A stretch of DNA of 64,000 bases from Intrasporangiaceae bacterium URHB0013 (GTDB lineage Bacteria; Actinomycetota; Actinomycetes; Actinomycetales; Dermatophilaceae): positions 434,001-498,000 of the forward strand of contig JIBA01000014.1 in the NCBI GenBank assembly GCA_000620545.1, written 5' to 3'. Position numbers and translations under genes: made by a program. Shown here one piece after another: positions 5,534-11,459 of this stretch. Every line of letters starts with the position of its first letter. Position 1 is the first letter of the stretch. The notes beneath the pieces were generated by a model. The model had not been told where the DNA came from and did not search any database. It saw only the letters and a program-made list of their open reading frames with translations.

Positions 5534-6511
5534 TCAGCGCGCGTGCACCGTGGCGCCGAGCGCCGGGACCCTCGGCGTGAGCCGCTCCCAGTGGCCCGCG
5601 AGGGGTCCGGCGTCCACGTCTGCCGCGGCGTCGCGCGTCGTGAGGACGAGGACGCTCGGACCGGCCCCGGACACGACGGCCGCGTGGCCGTGGGACCGCA
5701 GCAGGTCGACGAGCTCCATCGTGGCCGGGTAGGAGGGGCGTCGCGCCTCCTGGTGGAGCCAGTCACGCGTCGCGGCGTGCAGGTGTGACGGGTCGGCCGT
5801 CAGTGCGTGCACGAGCAGGGCCGCACGTCCGGCACCTGCGGCCGCGGCTGCGAGCGGCACCGTTGCGGGCAGCACGGCACGGGCCGTGCGCGTCGCGAGC
5901 TGCGTCTCGGGGAGGAAGACCACGACCTCGACGTCGGCATGCGGGTCGAGGCGCGCGGTCACGGTGCGGTCGCCCTGGTCGCGTCCGGTGCCGTCCGGCA
6001 TCCAGCTCACCGTCAGCCCGCCGAGGACGCTGGCCGACGCGTTGTCGGGATGCCCCTCGAGCTCGCTCGACACGTGCGTCGCCAGGTCGAGGTCGACCGG
6101 TACGGCCGTGCCGGGAGCCGGCCACACGGCATACGCGCTCTCGTCCACGCCCAGCGAAAGAGCCTGTGCCGCAACGACTCCTGCGACGATGGCGGTCGCC
6201 GACGAGCCCAGGCCGCGGCCGTGTGGAACACCGTTGGTGGCCTCGATGTGCAGGCCCACCGGCGGTTCGACACCGAGGACCCCCCACGTGTGCCGCATCG
6301 TGGCGTGCACGAGGTGTCGCTCGTCGGTGGGCACGTCAGCCGCCCCCTCACCGGTGACCTCGATGACGAGACCGACTCTTCCGGAGGTCGTGACGACGTA
6401 GTCGTCCCAGAGACCGAGGGCCAGACCGATGGAGTCGAAGCCGGGCCCGAGGTTGGCGCTGCTCGCAGGCACGCGCACGCTCACGGAGCGGCCCGCGGGC
6501 ACCCGGTCCAC
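5534..6511 (-). CDS. thrB: Homoserine kinase
   Basis: This GHMP-family kinase phosphorylates L-homoserine with ATP, the penultimate step of threonine synthesis. The 325-residue protein begins near the GHMP N-terminal motif VRVPASSANLGPGFDS and has the ATP-binding glycine/serine loop HGRGLGSSATAIVAG. Near the C-terminus it has SGAGPSVLVL. The frame is open much further upstream, but that extension overlaps thrC antiparallel to its known domains. The GTG at 6511 lies 4 nt after the thrC stop with GAGG about 9 nt upstream, and gives the family's usual length. It is the last gene of hom-thrC-thrB. Chromosomal order thrC-thrB-rho is shared with Mycobacterium. Confidence 0.92.
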   Translation of the reverse strand: MDRVPAGRSVSVRVPASSANLGPGFDSIGLALGLWDDYVVTTSGRVGLVIEVTGEGAADVPTDERHLVHATMRHTWGVLGVEPPVGLHIEATNGVPHGRGLGSSATAIVAGVVAAQALSLGVDESAYAVWPAPGTAVPVDLDLATHVSSELEGHPDNASASVLGGLTVSWMPDGTGRDQGDRTVTARLDPHADVEVVVFLPETQLATRTARAVLPATVPLAAAAAGAGRAALLVHALTADPSHLHAATRDWLHQEARRPSYPATMELVDLLRSHGHAAVVSGAGPSVLVLTTRDAAADVDAGPLAGHWERLTPRVPALGATVHAR

Positions 6512-6515
6512 GCGG

Positions 6516-7610
6516 TCAGCCCTCGAGGCCGAGCGCCCGGGCCGCCGAGAACGCGTCGACCGAGACCCGGGTGGGCACGACGTCGCTGCCGTCGGCCGTG
6601 CGCAGCGCCCATTGGGGGTCCTTGAGCCCGTGGCCGGTGACGGTGCAGACGATGCGGGCACCGGGGGGCACGAGTCCGGCCGCGTGGCTAGCGAGCAGCC
6701 CAGCGACGGAGGCGGCCGAGCCGGGCTCGACGAAGACCCCCTCCTGCGACGACAGGTAGCGGTGCGCCTCGAGGATCTGCTCGTCGGTGACGGAGTCGAT
6801 GCGCCCACCTGACTCGTCGCGTGCAGCAACCGCCTGCTCCCACGATGCGGGGTTGCCGATGCGGATGGCGGTGGCGACGGTCTCGGGGTGGTCGACGGGG
6901 TGGCCGAGGACGATCGGCGCCGCACCGGCCGCCTGGAAACCCCACATCATCGGCAGGTGCGTGGCCGGGCCGGGCCGGTCGCTCACCGTCGGGTCGGCGG
7001 AGTACTCGCGGTAGCCCCGCCAGTACGCCGTGATGTTGCCGGCGTTGCCGACGGGCAGGCAGTGGATGTCGGGGGCGTCGCCCAGCGCGTCGACGACCTC
7101 GAAGCTCGCAGTCTTCTGGCCCTCGATGCGTGCCGGGTTCACCGAGTTGACGAGCTCGACGGGGTAGGCCTCGGCGAGCTTTCGCGCAAGCGTCAGGCAG
7201 TCGTCGAAGTTGCCGTCGACCTGCAGCAGCGTCGCGCCGTGGGCGATGGCCTGGCTCAGCTTGCCCATCGCGATCTTGCCGTCGGGCACGAGGACGCCGC
7301 AGGTCATGCCCGCCTTGGTCGCGTAGGCCGCCGCCGACGCGCTCGTGTTGCCCGTGCTCGCGCAGATGACGGCCCTGGCGCCCTTGCCGGCAGCGACGCT
7401 GATCGCCGTCGTCATGCCGCGGTCCTTGAACGATCCCGTGGGGTTGAGGCCCTCGTACTTGAGGTGCACCTCGGCCCCGACGCGCTCGGAGAGCTTCTCG
7501 GCGTGGATGAGCGGGGTGCCACCCTCGTGGAGCGTGACGACGGGCGCACCGTCGAGCATCGGCAGGCGGTCGGCGTACTCGCGGATCACTCCACGCCACT
7601 GGTGGGCCAT
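6516..7610 (-). CDS. thrC: Threonine synthase
   Basis: This PLP-dependent lyase converts O-phospho-L-homoserine to L-threonine. The 364-residue protein has the Schiff-base lysine in [10 protein letters not shown] (about Lys62), the substrate-binding [12 protein letters not shown] segment and the PLP-phosphate loop around [13 protein letters not shown]. The ATG at 7610 overlaps the hom stop by one base (TGATG), with GGAAGG 6 nt upstream; a GTG one codon earlier is possible. The stop lies 4 nt before thrB, so hom, thrC and thrB should be translated from one message. Confidence 0.95.
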
Positions 7611-8926
7611 CACGAACCTTCCACGCGCATCACGGAGTTGACACCACGGACGACGTCGAGCGTACGCAGTCGCTCCACCGTGGACGAGAGGGCTGCGTCG
7701 CTCGCGGAGTGCGTGACGACGATGAGGTTGGCGCGGGCGCCCTCGTCCTCGCCGGCGGGGACGAGCTGCTGGCGCACCGTCTCGATCGACACGTCGTGGT
7801 CGGCGAAGGCCGCTGCGACCTGCGCGAGCACACCGGAGCGGTCCTCGACGTCGAGGCTGATGTGGTACCTCGTCTGGGCATCGCCCATGGTCAGGACGGG
7901 TAGGTCGGCGTAGCTCGACTCCCCCGGGCCCAGGCCGCCGCCGACGCGGTGGCGGGCGACGGCGACGAGGTCCCCGAGGACCGCCGAGGCGGTCGGGTCA
8001 CCGCCGGCGCCCTTGCCGTAGAACATCAGCTCGCCGGCGGCGTCGGCCTCGACGAAGACGGCGTTGAACGCCTCGCGGACCCCGGCGAGGGGGTGCGACC
8101 GCGGGATCATCGCCGGGTGGACGCGGACGCTGATGCCCTTGTCGGTGCGCTCGCAGATGGCGAGCAGCTTGACCACGGAGTCCATCTCGCGGGCGGCCGC
8201 GACGTCGGCGGCCGACACCTCGGTGATGCCCTCCCGGTAGACGTCGGTGCCCGAGACCCGGGTGTGGAAGGCGAGCGAGGCGAGGATCGCCGCCTTGGCC
8301 GCGGCGTCGAAGCCTTCGACGTCCGCGGTCGGGTCGGCCTCGGCGTAGCCCAGCGCCTGGGCCTGCTCGACGGCGTCCGCGAAGCCGGCCCCCGTCGTGT
8401 CCATCTTGTCGAGGACGTAGTTGGTCGTGCCGTTGACGATCCCGAGGACCTTGCGCACCTCGTCCCCGGCGAGGGACTCGCGCAGCGGCCGCAGCAGGGG
8501 GATGGCGCCGGCGACCGCGGCCTCGTAGTAGAGGTCGACGCCGTGACGGGCGGCCGCGTCGTAGAGGGCGGGGCCGTCCTCGGCGAGGAGCGCCTTGTTG
8601 GCCGTGACGACCGAGGCGCCGTGCTCCATGGCGCGCAGGATGAGCGATCGGGCCGGCTCGATGCCGCCGATCACCTCGACGACGACGTCGGCCCGCGTCA
8701 CGAGCTCCTCGGCCTCCGTCGTGAAGAGGGCGGGGTCGACCCCGAGGGCGGCGCGGTCACGCCCGGCGCGGCGCACGGCGATGCCGACGATCTCGAGCGG
8801 CGTGCCGACGCGGGCCGACATGTCGTCGGCGTGCTCGGTGAGCAGGCGTGCGACGGCCCCGCCCACGACACCGGCCCCCAGCAGGGCGACGCGCAACGGC
8901 TGGATGTCACTCACGGCGCTGTCCAC
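7610..8926 (-). CDS. hom: Homoserine dehydrogenase with ACT domain
   Basis: This enzyme reduces aspartate semialdehyde to homoserine with NAD(P)H, at the branch point to threonine and methionine. The 438-residue protein has the Rossmann fingerprint [11 protein letters not shown] near the N-terminus, the catalytic region around [12 protein letters not shown] and [17 protein letters not shown], and a C-terminal ACT domain ([20 protein letters not shown]) expected to sense threonine. The GTG at 8926 has AGGA upstream; GTG at 8914 is an alternative. It lies 94 nt after lysA, so it may be read from the same transcript or from an internal promoter that I cannot identify. Confidence 0.95.
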
Positions 8927-9020: not shown

Positions 9021-10439
9021 TCAGACGTCGAGAGCGAGCAGGTCGTCGATCGTCTCGCGCCGCACGATGGTCCGGGCGACCCCGTCGCGCACCGCGACGA
9101 CCGGTGGGCGGGGCGTGTGGTTGTACTGGCTCGAGAGGGAACGGCAGTAGGCGCCGGTGCCCGGGACGGCGATGAGGTCGCCCGCGCCCACGTCCGCCGG
9201 CAGGAACTCGTCCTTGACGATGATGTCGCCGCTCTCGCAGTGCCTGCCGACGACCCGGGCGAGCACCGGGTCGGCTGTGGAGGCGCGGCCGGCGAGCGTG
9301 CAGGAGTAGTTGGCGTCGTAGAGCGCGGTGCGGACGTTGTCGCTCATGCCGCCGTCCACCGAGACGTAGACGCGCTGCGCGCCCCCGTCGAGGTCGACCG
9401 GCTTGACGGTGCCGACCTCGTAGAGGGTGAAGGTCGTGGGGCCGGCGATGGCGCGTCCCGGCTCGACGGAGATCCTCGGCACGGCGACCTGCTCGGCGCG
9501 GCACTCGCGCTCGATGATCTCCGCCATGCCGGCCGCGAGGTGCTTGGGCGGCAGCGGGTCGTGCTCCGTGGTGTAGGCGATGCCGAAGCCACCCCCGAGG
9601 TCGAGCTCGGGCAGCTCGACGCCCAGGTCCCGTGCGATCCGGGTGTGCAGGCCGATGATGCGCCGGGCCGACACCTCGAAGCCCGCCGTGTCGAAGATCT
9701 GCGAGCCGATGTGGCTGTGCAGACCGAGCAGGCGCAGCGACTCGGGCTTGTCGAGGATGCGGCGCGCAGCCTCGAAGGCGTGACCGCCGGACAGCGACAG
9801 ACCGAACTTCTGGTCCTCGTGCGCCGTCGCGATGAACTCGTGCGTGTGGGCCTCGACCCCGACGGTGACGCGGATGAGGACGGGGGCGACGACCCCGAGC
9901 TCGGTGGCGACGGCGGCGACACGCTCGATCTCGTCGAACGAGTCGATGACGATGCGGCTCACGCCGTAGTCGAGGGCGTCGCGGATCTCGGCGACGCTCT
10001 TGTTGTTGCCGTGCAGGCCGATCCGTTCACCCGGGACACCGGCACGTCTCGCCACCGCGAGCTCGCCACCGGTGCACACGTCGAGGTGCAGCCCCTCGTC
10101 GTGGACCCACCGGGCGACCTCGGTGCAGAGGAAGGCCTTGCCGGCGTAGAACACGTCTGCGCCACCTGACAGGCCGTCAAACACCTCGGCGTACGTCTCC
10201 TTGAAATCCCTTGCGCGCGAACGAAAGTCGTCCTCGTCGATGATGTATGCCGGCGTGCCGAAGTCCTGGGCCAGCTCGGTGACGCTCATCCCACCGACCG
10301 CGAGGACGCCGTCGCTTCCCCGGTTCACCGACCCCGCCCAGAGCGACGGGACGAGGGCGTTGACGTCGACGGGGGTCTGGAGCCACGTGGGGCCGCGATA
10401 GCCCTCCCCGTGCAGCGCTCCGGCTTCGTGTGCGCGCAT
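9021..10439 (-). CDS. lysA: Diaminopimelate decarboxylase
   Basis: This fold-type III PLP enzyme makes L-lysine from meso-diaminopimelate. The 472-residue protein shows the PLP lysine in VFYAGKAFL, the glycine loop DLGGGFGIAY, the phosphate-binding EPGRAI, the dimer-interface catalytic cysteine motif CESGD, and the C-terminal tyrosine region (VPGTGAYCRSLSSQYN). The ATG at 10439 is 2 nt after the stop of the ArgRS-like gene, with GAGAGG 8 nt upstream. The open frame extends further upstream but only across that gene. argS-lysA-hom-thrC-thrB is a known actinobacterial order; here a core-less ArgRS-like gene occupies the argS place. Confidence 0.95.
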   Translation of the reverse strand: MRAHEAGALHGEGYRGPTWLQTPVDVNALVPSLWAGSVNRGSDGVLAVGGMSVTELAQDFGTPAYIIDEDDFRSRARDFKETYAEVFDGLSGGADVFYAGKAFLCTEVARWVHDEGLHLDVCTGGELAVARRAGVPGERIGLHGNNKSVAEIRDALDYGVSRIVIDSFDEIERVAAVATELGVVAPVLIRVTVGVEAHTHEFIATAHEDQKFGLSLSGGHAFEAARRILDKPESLRLLGLHSHIGSQIFDTAGFEVSARRIIGLHTRIARDLGVELPELDLGGGFGIAYTTEHDPLPPKHLAAGMAEIIERECRAEQVAVPRISVEPGRAIAGPTTFTLYEVGTVKPVDLDGGAQRVYVSVDGGMSDNVRTALYDANYSCTLAGRASTADPVLARVVGRHCESGDIIVKDEFLPADVGAGDLIAVPGTGAYCRSLSSQYNHTPRPPVVAVRDGVARTIVRRETIDDLLALDV

Positions 10440-10441
10440 GG

Positions 10442-11236
10442 CTACATCCTCTCCGGGGCTGCGGCGCCGAGGCGGGTCAGTCCATTGCGCAAGACGACGC
10501 CGACGGCCTCGGCGAGGAGCAGACGGGCACCGTGGACCGGCTGCGGGTGCACGCCCACGGTCATGGGCCGCAGGGGGTGGTCCCAGGCGTCGGCGAGCGC
10601 GGCCAGGTCGCTCACGGCGCGACGCTGCTGGACGTCGTCGCCCGCATGGCTCGCGAGACGCTGTGGAAGGTCGGCCAGCGCGACGAGGAGGTGACGCTCG
10701 GAGACGTGCGTCAGCTCGCCGAGGGGGCTCGATGGACGCCTCTCGACGCCGGCGGCCTCGGCATTGCGGATGATGCGACACAGGCGGGCATGGGCGAGCT
10801 GGGCGGCGCGCACGGGGTCGTCCGCCGCTCGGGTGCCGGGCGCCTCGACGACGTCCCGGAGCACTCCGCCGGCTGCGAGGGCGTAGTGGTCCTGGTCCTC
10901 GAGCACGAGGGCGACGATGGCGGACCGCGTGGAGTCCTCCAGGGTCAGGGCGATGAGGCCGCTCGGCGCGACCTCGACCGCGGCAACCGACTTCTGGCGG
11001 GTCAGCCCCTGGGCGAGCACGCGTGCGAGGTCGCGCGGCTCGACGTCGATCCGGGGGGCCCAGCGTTGGGCCACGGGCGTCACCCAGTCCGCGACGACGC
11101 CTGCGACGCGGGTGTCCGTGGGCCGGAAGAGGGGACCGGGGGGCGCCCCGGCCTGTGCCTCGTCGGGCAGCGCCCCGGCCCGGGCCGCCTGCGCGGCCAC
11201 GTCCTCGAGGAGGGCGCGCAGCTGCTCCGGCGTCAT
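10442..11236 (-). CDS. Core-less arginyl-tRNA-synthetase-like protein (tRNA-binding domains only)
   Basis: This 264-residue protein resembles the two ends of ArgRS joined together. Residues 1 to about 110 look like the ArgRS N-terminal tRNA-binding domain (DWVTPVAQRWAPRIDVEPRD, VAAVEVAPSGLIALTLE, compare GDYATNVA and AGPGFINLRL). Residues about 140-264 look like the DALR anticodon-binding domain (PVRAAQLAHARLCRIIRNAE, ARLLLAEAVGVVLRNGLTRL) and end in APERM, the usual ArgRS C-terminus. The class I catalytic domain with HIGH and KMSKS is absent (a full ArgRS is about 550-590 residues), so it cannot charge tRNA. TAGACT lies 7 nt before the ATG without a Shine-Dalgarno sequence, suggesting a leaderless message. 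It heads the lysA operon and is divergent from tRNA-Arg(CCG). The function is unknown; tRNA binding is inferred. Confidence 0.8.
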   Translation of the reverse strand: MTPEQLRALLEDVAAQAARAGALPDEAQAGAPPGPLFRPTDTRVAGVVADWVTPVAQRWAPRIDVEPRDLARVLAQGLTRQKSVAAVEVAPSGLIALTLEDSTRSAIVALVLEDQDHYALAAGGVLRDVVEAPGTRAADDPVRAAQLAHARLCRIIRNAEAAGVERRPSSPLGELTHVSERHLLVALADLPQRLASHAGDDVQQRRAVSDLAALADAWDHPLRPMTVGVHPQPVHGARLLLAEAVGVVLRNGLTRLGAAAPERM

Positions 11237-11243
11237 GCGCCCG

Positions 11244-11249
11244 AGTCTA
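11244..11249 (-). promoter_or_regulatory. -10 box for leaderless ArgRS-like/lysA transcript
   Basis: TAGACT (minus strand) ends 7 nt before the ATG at 11236, and there is no Shine-Dalgarno sequence between them. Transcription would start at or next to the start codon. Confidence 0.5.
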
Positions 11250-11379: not shown

Positions 11380-11452
11380 GCCCCCGTAGCTCAGGGGATA
11401 GAGCACCGCCCTCCGGAGGCGGGAGCGCAGGTTCGAATCCTGCCGGGGGCAC
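11380..11452 (+). tRNA. tRNA-Arg (anticodon CCG)
   Basis: A full cloverleaf can be folded. The acceptor stem GCCCCCG (11380-11386) pairs with CGGGGGC (11444-11450). The anticodon stem CCGCC/GGCGG encloses the loop CTCCGGA, and the T arm is GCAGG-TTCGAAT-CCTGC. Anticodon CCG (11413-11415) reads the codon CGG. CCA is not fully encoded. It is divergent from the ArgRS-like gene. Confidence 0.95.
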
Positions 11453-11459
11453 CGAGGGA

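Follow-up and report, generated by a model that had tools for sequence, protein, structure and literature searches.

The window analyzed here is a 64,000-nucleotide stretch of contig JIBA01000014.1 from Intrasporangiaceae bacterium URHB0013. It harbors an nrtL-like gene of 264 codons on the minus strand (10442..11236; ATG at 11236, stop at 10444-10442), whose product is derived from arginyl-tRNA synthetase (ArgRS) and is not itself an ArgRS. On the same strand, 2 nt further 3', lies lysA, encoding diaminopimelate decarboxylase (9021..10439; TIGR01048, E=5.9e-131), followed by hom for homoserine dehydrogenase (7610..8926), thrC for threonine synthase (6516..7613), thrB for homoserine kinase (mechanical ORF, 5534..6925) and finally rho. 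The kinase match begins at residue 148 of the thrB frame, so the true thrB start is probably near 6484. The divergent neighbor of the coreless gene is a plus-strand gene for tRNA-Arg(CCG) (11380-11453), and a -10-like element, TAGACT (11244..11249, minus strand), lies 7 nt 5' of the ATG. An initial annotation of this DNA had described a 264-residue frame with ArgRS-like ends and without HIGH or KMSKS, placed 2 nt before lysA. The frame is real and lies on the minus strand, and the spacing is borne out with lysA starting at 10439.

The protein falls into three parts, all encoded on the minus strand. Residues ~1-113 (10898..11236) correspond to the ArgRS N-terminal domain, as judged from AlphaFold secondary structure and a Z of 9.6 to 3gdz. 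Residues ~114-138 (10823..10897) are a linker at the former site of the catalytic core, and residues ~139-264 (10445..10822) form the DALR anticodon-binding domain, which ends in APERM and is recognized by Pfam DALR_1 (PF05746) over residues 146-264 (E=1.2e-13, 51.6 bits vs a cut-off of 22.3). The catalytic domain, tRNA-synt_1d (PF00750), has no match in the protein at E<=1; as a control, the full-length ArgRS of the same genome matches it at 8.6e-104. In the alignment, the 264-residue protein has gaps at KMSKS, and the two clade members printed have gaps at HIGH. Pfam Arg_tRNA_synt_N reaches 16.7 bits, under its cut-off of 21.5, and the assignment of the N-terminal domain is therefore carried by the predicted fold, because both a solved N-terminal domain and full ArgRS superpose on it.

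Structure prediction and superposition on ArgRS, which the initial annotation had proposed as a check, yielded an end-to-end alignment with full ArgRS. With 19 homologues as input, the best of five AlphaFold models has a pLDDT of 89.0 and a pTM of 0.86 (means of the five: 89.0, 87.3, 77.5, 76.5 and 75.4). ArgRS chains occupy ranks 1-24 in Foldseek, two of them at E<=0.001 and the best at 4.3e-4. With VIA-align, 14 full ArgRS entries align over 222-242 residues at Z 15.4-19.9 and rmsd 2.8-3.8, the highest being 1iq0 (Z 19.9, 222 residues, rmsd 2.8), and the match to a fifteenth entry, 3fnr, is confined to residues 99-264. The solved N-terminal domain, 3gdz, aligns over 102 residues within 1-116 at an rmsd of 3.1. 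Non-synthetase structural matches, at Z 6.3 or less, were taken as common helical arrangements. Since a single superposition spans both end domains, the model sets the two tRNA-contacting domains in an ArgRS-like relative geometry, which is thus predicted to have been kept despite loss of the core.

The gene is by all appearances maintained. A full-length form occurs in 21 of 186 genomes of the family (URHB0013 included) and in 9/9 of the genus. This family, f1, we take to be the Dermatophilaceae from 18 named loci (Terrabacter, Terracoccus, Intrasporangium, Humibacillus and bins). The other 20 homologues are 57-88% identical to the 264-residue protein, and all 21 are intact, at ~264-277 residues with an APERM C-terminus; in L052 the match begins one codon after the start codon. 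Within the genus, 36 pairs with dS of 0.13-0.68 give a mean dN/dS of 0.203 and a maximum of 0.322, as compared with 0.102 for lysA and 0.160 for the genome's other ArgRS (28 pairs, 8 genomes). By part, the ratio is 0.157 for residues 1-112, 0.515 for the linker (113-138) and 0.186 for the DALR domain. These substitution ratios support purifying selection on the protein, with the linker left free and a constraint that appears somewhat looser than that on lysA. The earlier proposal that the gene is under selection, with dN/dS named as the check, agrees with the mean of ~0.20. Frameshifts in relatives had been named as the sign of a decaying pseudogene, and 21/21 frames are open; together with dN/dS, the intact frames rule out such a pseudogene in this clade.

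The pattern of conserved residues is mixed. Among the positions kept at >=90% in the 21 clade rows and in rows of the lysA-linked ArgRS (type A, below) are R38, P39, D50, H149, R151, R157 and E180, and likewise P191, P224, R238, A260, P261 and R263. Others have changed relative to type A: N54 to P, L59 to W, Y147 mostly to L and Y219 mostly to D, the last two being positions at which 100% and 96% of type A rows, respectively, have Y. A further set (R7, R43, R58, W59, R104, R154, R167, R181, R193 and R250) shows no variation within the clade and differs from type A. In an alignment read by eye, R151 and M264 align with R495 and M607 of yeast ArgRS. We take R495, M607 and Y565 of the yeast enzyme to be tRNA contacts, with R495 and M607 presumably contacting the anticodon. 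The passages of PMC4742068 examined do not contain these three residues. The pI of the protein is 6.1. As ArgRS positions are partly kept and partly changed, the protein is no copy of the ArgRS tRNA surface and has constraints of its own, and with part of the ArgRS residue set lost, its recognition may have changed.

This record bears on the idea that the reading frame survives as a cis relic, kept for translational coupling to lysA while the protein itself has no job. The gap to lysA is indeed 2-3 nt across the 21 close homologues, and lineages other than this one have a strongly diverged gene or none that was found. A coupling leader, however, would not need constrained domains, clade-specific residues or an intact frame, and here dN/dS is 0.20 with both domains constrained and the linker alone relaxed, the frame is intact in 21/21 genomes, and the clade has invariant residues unlike those of type A (R7, R58, W59, R104, R154, R167, R181, R193, R250). 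We regard a relic of this kind as very doubtful.

Two lineages of ArgRS have to be distinguished in the family: type A, which is linked to lysA, and type B, which is a separate and unlinked lineage. The URHB0013 genome has two DALR proteins, namely the 264-residue protein and a full ArgRS of 586 residues at G000:C4:38499-40256, in which the N-terminal, catalytic and DALR domains all score above cut-off. A search of the genome for a full argS, which the initial annotation had recommended, thus finds one, elsewhere and of the other lineage, type B. In the DALR region, the 264-residue protein matches type A ArgRS of relatives at 34-41% identity (among the matches listed), and the type B ArgRS of its own genome shows no match to it at E<=0.001, so the protein descends from type A. 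The same layout of the locus, in which a divergent tRNA-Arg(CCG) is followed by the gene and then by lysA, supports this descent, together with the TAGACT-like element. TAGACT stands 6-7 nt 5' of the start in the clade, with TANNNT at 5-9 nt in 21/21. Full type A argS has TAGACT, or a form differing by one letter, before it at 11 of 15 loci tried; at the remaining four the rule of the script gave no start. The element would be a leaderless promoter retained from argS.

By count of rows, 73 of the 186 family genomes have a type B ArgRS at E<1e-100. All 21 genomes with the coreless gene carry it at E=0, each with a single match to the 264-residue protein, and a full type A argS was found in none of these 21. 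At least 11 genomes of the family have both kinds of ArgRS (G288, G303, G304, G308, G315, G317, G322, G324, G328, G335 and G361); their type A frames span 551-628 residues, and the assignment draws on a comparison with the type A profile in four (G288, G335, G361 and G317) and on the length of the open frame in the other seven. As side observations, G081 has two equally scoring type B argS on different contigs (C2 and C4) along with another argS-like stretch that is interrupted by a TGA. Searches against plasmids matched 17 records, none at 80% coverage, and two that were inspected gave nothing useful; in one of the plasmid stretches, a full argS that escaped annotation could fit close to hom and thrC.

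It had been suggested that an ancestral argS lost its core, perhaps after a second ArgRS took over charging. This history is well supported, with a linked argS in relatives and type B in 21/21, and the order of events is a reconstruction. The further suggestion of the initial annotation, that the product acts as a tRNA-Arg-binding regulator, chaperone or decoy, is a hypothesis about function. The constant company of type B could also mean that the coreless protein is its partner in trans, a stand-alone tRNA-binding module that aids the charging of tRNA-Arg(CCG). The type B enzyme of URHB0013 has all three domains of a complete ArgRS, however, and no conserved coreless gene was seen in a number of genomes with type B, so that a partnership of this sort seems quite unlikely.

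A third alternative is that the protein regulates its own operon by sensing free tRNA-Arg, and with it arginine supply, and tuning the leaderless nrtL-lysA-hom-thrCB transcript. Its gene is the first of the run, lies 2 nt 5' of lysA and has the conserved TAGACT 6-7 nt 5' of its start, and the argS-lysA pair of corynebacteria reportedly responds to arginine. This position is, however, inherited from full argS and says little, and tRNA-Arg and lysA remain adjacent in relatives that lack the gene. We consider such a regulator unlikely.

Across the genomes compared, the region upstream of lysA presents a graded series. L121 and L127-L131 have a full type A gene 5' of lysA, coreless or decayed type A genes occupy the locus in L093, L113, L122 and L123, the DALR end alone is in view in L111, and faint remnants persist in L098, L101, L104 and L119. 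Nothing was recognized between tRNA-Arg(CCG) and lysA in, for example, L094-L096, L103, L110, L120, L124 and L125, and L117 has a diverged coreless gene away from lysA. Relatives that have type B and nothing recognizable before lysA indicate that the coreless gene is dispensable in some lineages. Part of the series is found within one genus, g125, in which G289 has type A only, G288 has both types and G290 has type B and a coreless gene. In G288 (L121) and G290 (L122), the type B argS lies near the tRNA-Arg(CCG)/type A locus, on opposite sides of the tRNA, as if the foreign type B gene had entered there. In L127 (G330), type A argS is present as a full-length tandem pair, with HLGG instead of HIGH in the lysA-proximal member and HIGH in the upstream one; the HLGG copy is perhaps a synthetase becoming a pseudoenzyme.

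Coreless genes are also found in other families. In f22, which we take to be streptomycetes on the grounds that 13 of the 15 genomes sampled exceed the NrtL cut-off discussed below, 15 loci (L003-L016 and L022) have lysA in 15 and tRNA-Arg(CCG) in 14; the gene is coreless in the 14 loci read whole, and in L016 it is split over two frames. On this identification of f22, the statement of the initial annotation that Streptomyces has argS next to lysA is contradicted, the coreless gene standing there in 14/14 loci read whole. In f21, a coreless gene lies 5' of lysA in L017, L019, L020 and L192. Among the 15 genomes of f20, 12 have both ends and no core within 1.5 kb 5' of lysA, and of the other three, L194 has only the DALR end, located where the stretch stops, another is cut off by the end of its contig, and the third shows none. 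One f21 genome, G172, has a coreless gene and no type B over the 1e-100 threshold, its best match being a 558-residue frame at 26%, and this ties the coreless gene to the presence of some other ArgRS. The 558-residue ArgRS-like frame may itself represent a third ArgRS lineage.

The number of core losses was approached with two trees, whose rows were chosen and are not random draws. The lysA tree has 54 rows, made up of 13 of the 21 clade members, 40 other genomes of the 186 in the family and one outgroup, and 34 of its 51 inner branches are starred. The URHB0013 clade groups with G343, G344 and G278-G280 (97/97), and the sister of this group, by a weak link (77/81), is a set that keeps full type A (G330, G371 and G374). 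By parsimony, this tree requires the full linked argS to have been lost six times in the sample. Coreless genes persist at three of the six: the URHB0013 clade with G344, the G197-G263-G265 group (G263 being scored coreless, with the DALR end only on its contig) and G290. The second tree, of the two end domains, has 70 rows after the split frames L016 and L057 and the divergent or cut relics L098, L101, L104, L111 and L119 were left out, and its branches are long. The coreless genes of f22 and f21 group here with the full argS of other families and apart from the URHB0013 clade; for f22 this grouping has support of 100/99. For topology tests, four long rows (L022, L117, L122 and L123) were further removed. 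A tree in which the URHB0013 clade is forced to group with f22 is worse by 20.2 log units (p-AU 0.062), which is no firm rejection, and one in which f21 joins them is worse by 25.0 (p-AU 0.040); f22 with f21 gives an AU p of 0.273, and the URHB0013 clade with the type A of its own family is not rejected (AU p 0.405). Independent losses of the core are thus favored by the trees and the shared locus, a reading from sequence that falls short of proof.

The closest named kind is NrtL, the ArgS-related anticodon-binding protein of NCBIfam NF045898 (NCBI name). Like the protein described here, NrtL has the ArgRS N-terminal and DALR domains without the core and is encoded 5' of lysA with tRNA-Arg(CCG) near. 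The model picks up each of the 21 homologues at E<=0.001. The 264-residue protein, however, scores 88.1 bits, under the curated cut-off of 340, and is shorter than the 327 positions of the model. The family is thus already named in a public database, and the diverged, below-cut-off form is a new variant. No literature on an NrtL-type protein or its function was found among the matches listed. The lysA-linked ArgRS of actinomycetes shares the fold of both end domains, the locus and the promoter-like element, and differs in having a core with HIGH and KMSKS-like motifs and a length of ~550-570 residues.

The best functional parallel, by analogy, may be DALRD3 of vertebrates, which according to passages of PMC7237682 purifies with arginine tRNAs and is needed for their m3C modification by METTL2, the m3C of two arginine tRNAs depending on it. 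Descent from an ArgRS that had lost catalysis is offered there as one possibility. DALRD3 resembles the 264-residue protein in having a DALR domain without a recognized synthetase core, and it differs in its N-terminal part, for which PMC7237682 describes no recognizable motif and where the bacterial protein has the ArgRS N-terminal domain.

Taken together, we consider it probable that the gene is a former argS that lost its core after type B was gained and now encodes a non-catalytic tRNA-Arg-binding factor. In such a scenario, the lineage would first have acquired an additional, unlinked ArgRS, type B, and the catalytic core of its lysA-linked argS would then have been lost in frame, with the N-terminal and DALR domains retained under purifying selection. 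The product would be a free factor that docks on arginine tRNA using the two end portions of the ancestral tRNA-binding surface, and the bound tRNA may be protected, delivered or presented to another enzyme, as by DALRD3 to a methyltransferase. The origin, predicted fold, selection, intactness, co-occurrence with a second ArgRS and operon position are supported; tRNA binding itself, the tRNA that is bound and the downstream step are what we infer from them. The adjacently encoded tRNA-Arg(CCG) would be the first candidate ligand. This tRNA gene adjoins full and coreless argS alike at the loci compared, so the adjacency is ancestral and is no evidence of partnership. A broader proposal, which we advance more tentatively, is that foreign replacement repeatedly turns the tRNA-Arg(CCG)/lysA-linked ArgRS of actinomycetes coreless, in several independent events that all spared both tRNA-contacting end domains, and that charging-free binding of tRNA-Arg is itself selected.

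A single syntenic locus here displays the full enzyme, the full enzyme with its replacement, the coreless gene with the replacement, and nothing, with part of the range inside one genus. It offers a natural series in which to follow an essential enzyme on its way to a pseudoenzyme. If the tRNA binding is true, the protein would be a bacterial counterpart to DALRD3 and would raise the question of what arginine tRNAs need beyond charging.

The tRNA-Arg(CCG) has its own pattern of change. Base 7 is G in 140 of the 186 family genomes, including URHB0013 (pair 7:66), and A or T in 20, with 26 fitting neither pattern; in the loci that were fetched, the partner base 66 co-varies with it by eye. None of the 20 genomes with A or T is among the 21 of the coreless clade, and in none was a full type A argS seen. 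On the lysA tree, base 7 changed at least five times. The changed tips belong only to lineages without the full gene outside the URHB0013 clade (6.04 branch units), with zero changes in the clade (1.70 units) and zero in the rest (6.56 units); the Poisson chance of zero is ~0.24 for the former, which is not significant, and ~0.004 for the latter. In f20, T7 is found in 15/15 genomes although most retain a diverged coreless gene. The change of base 7 therefore tracks replacement of type A and not loss of the coreless gene, with the exception of G195, which has A7 although it lacks type B (best E 2.8e-16). That f20 keeps its coreless genes and yet has an altered tRNA-Arg(CCG) counts against tRNA binding by such proteins. 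The orientation of the tRNA gene also varies. It is co-directional with the coreless gene in 8 of 18 loci (L161-L164, L167, L168, L171 and L173), at a distance of ~1.1 kb in L171 and L173, and divergent in the other 10, as in URHB0013.
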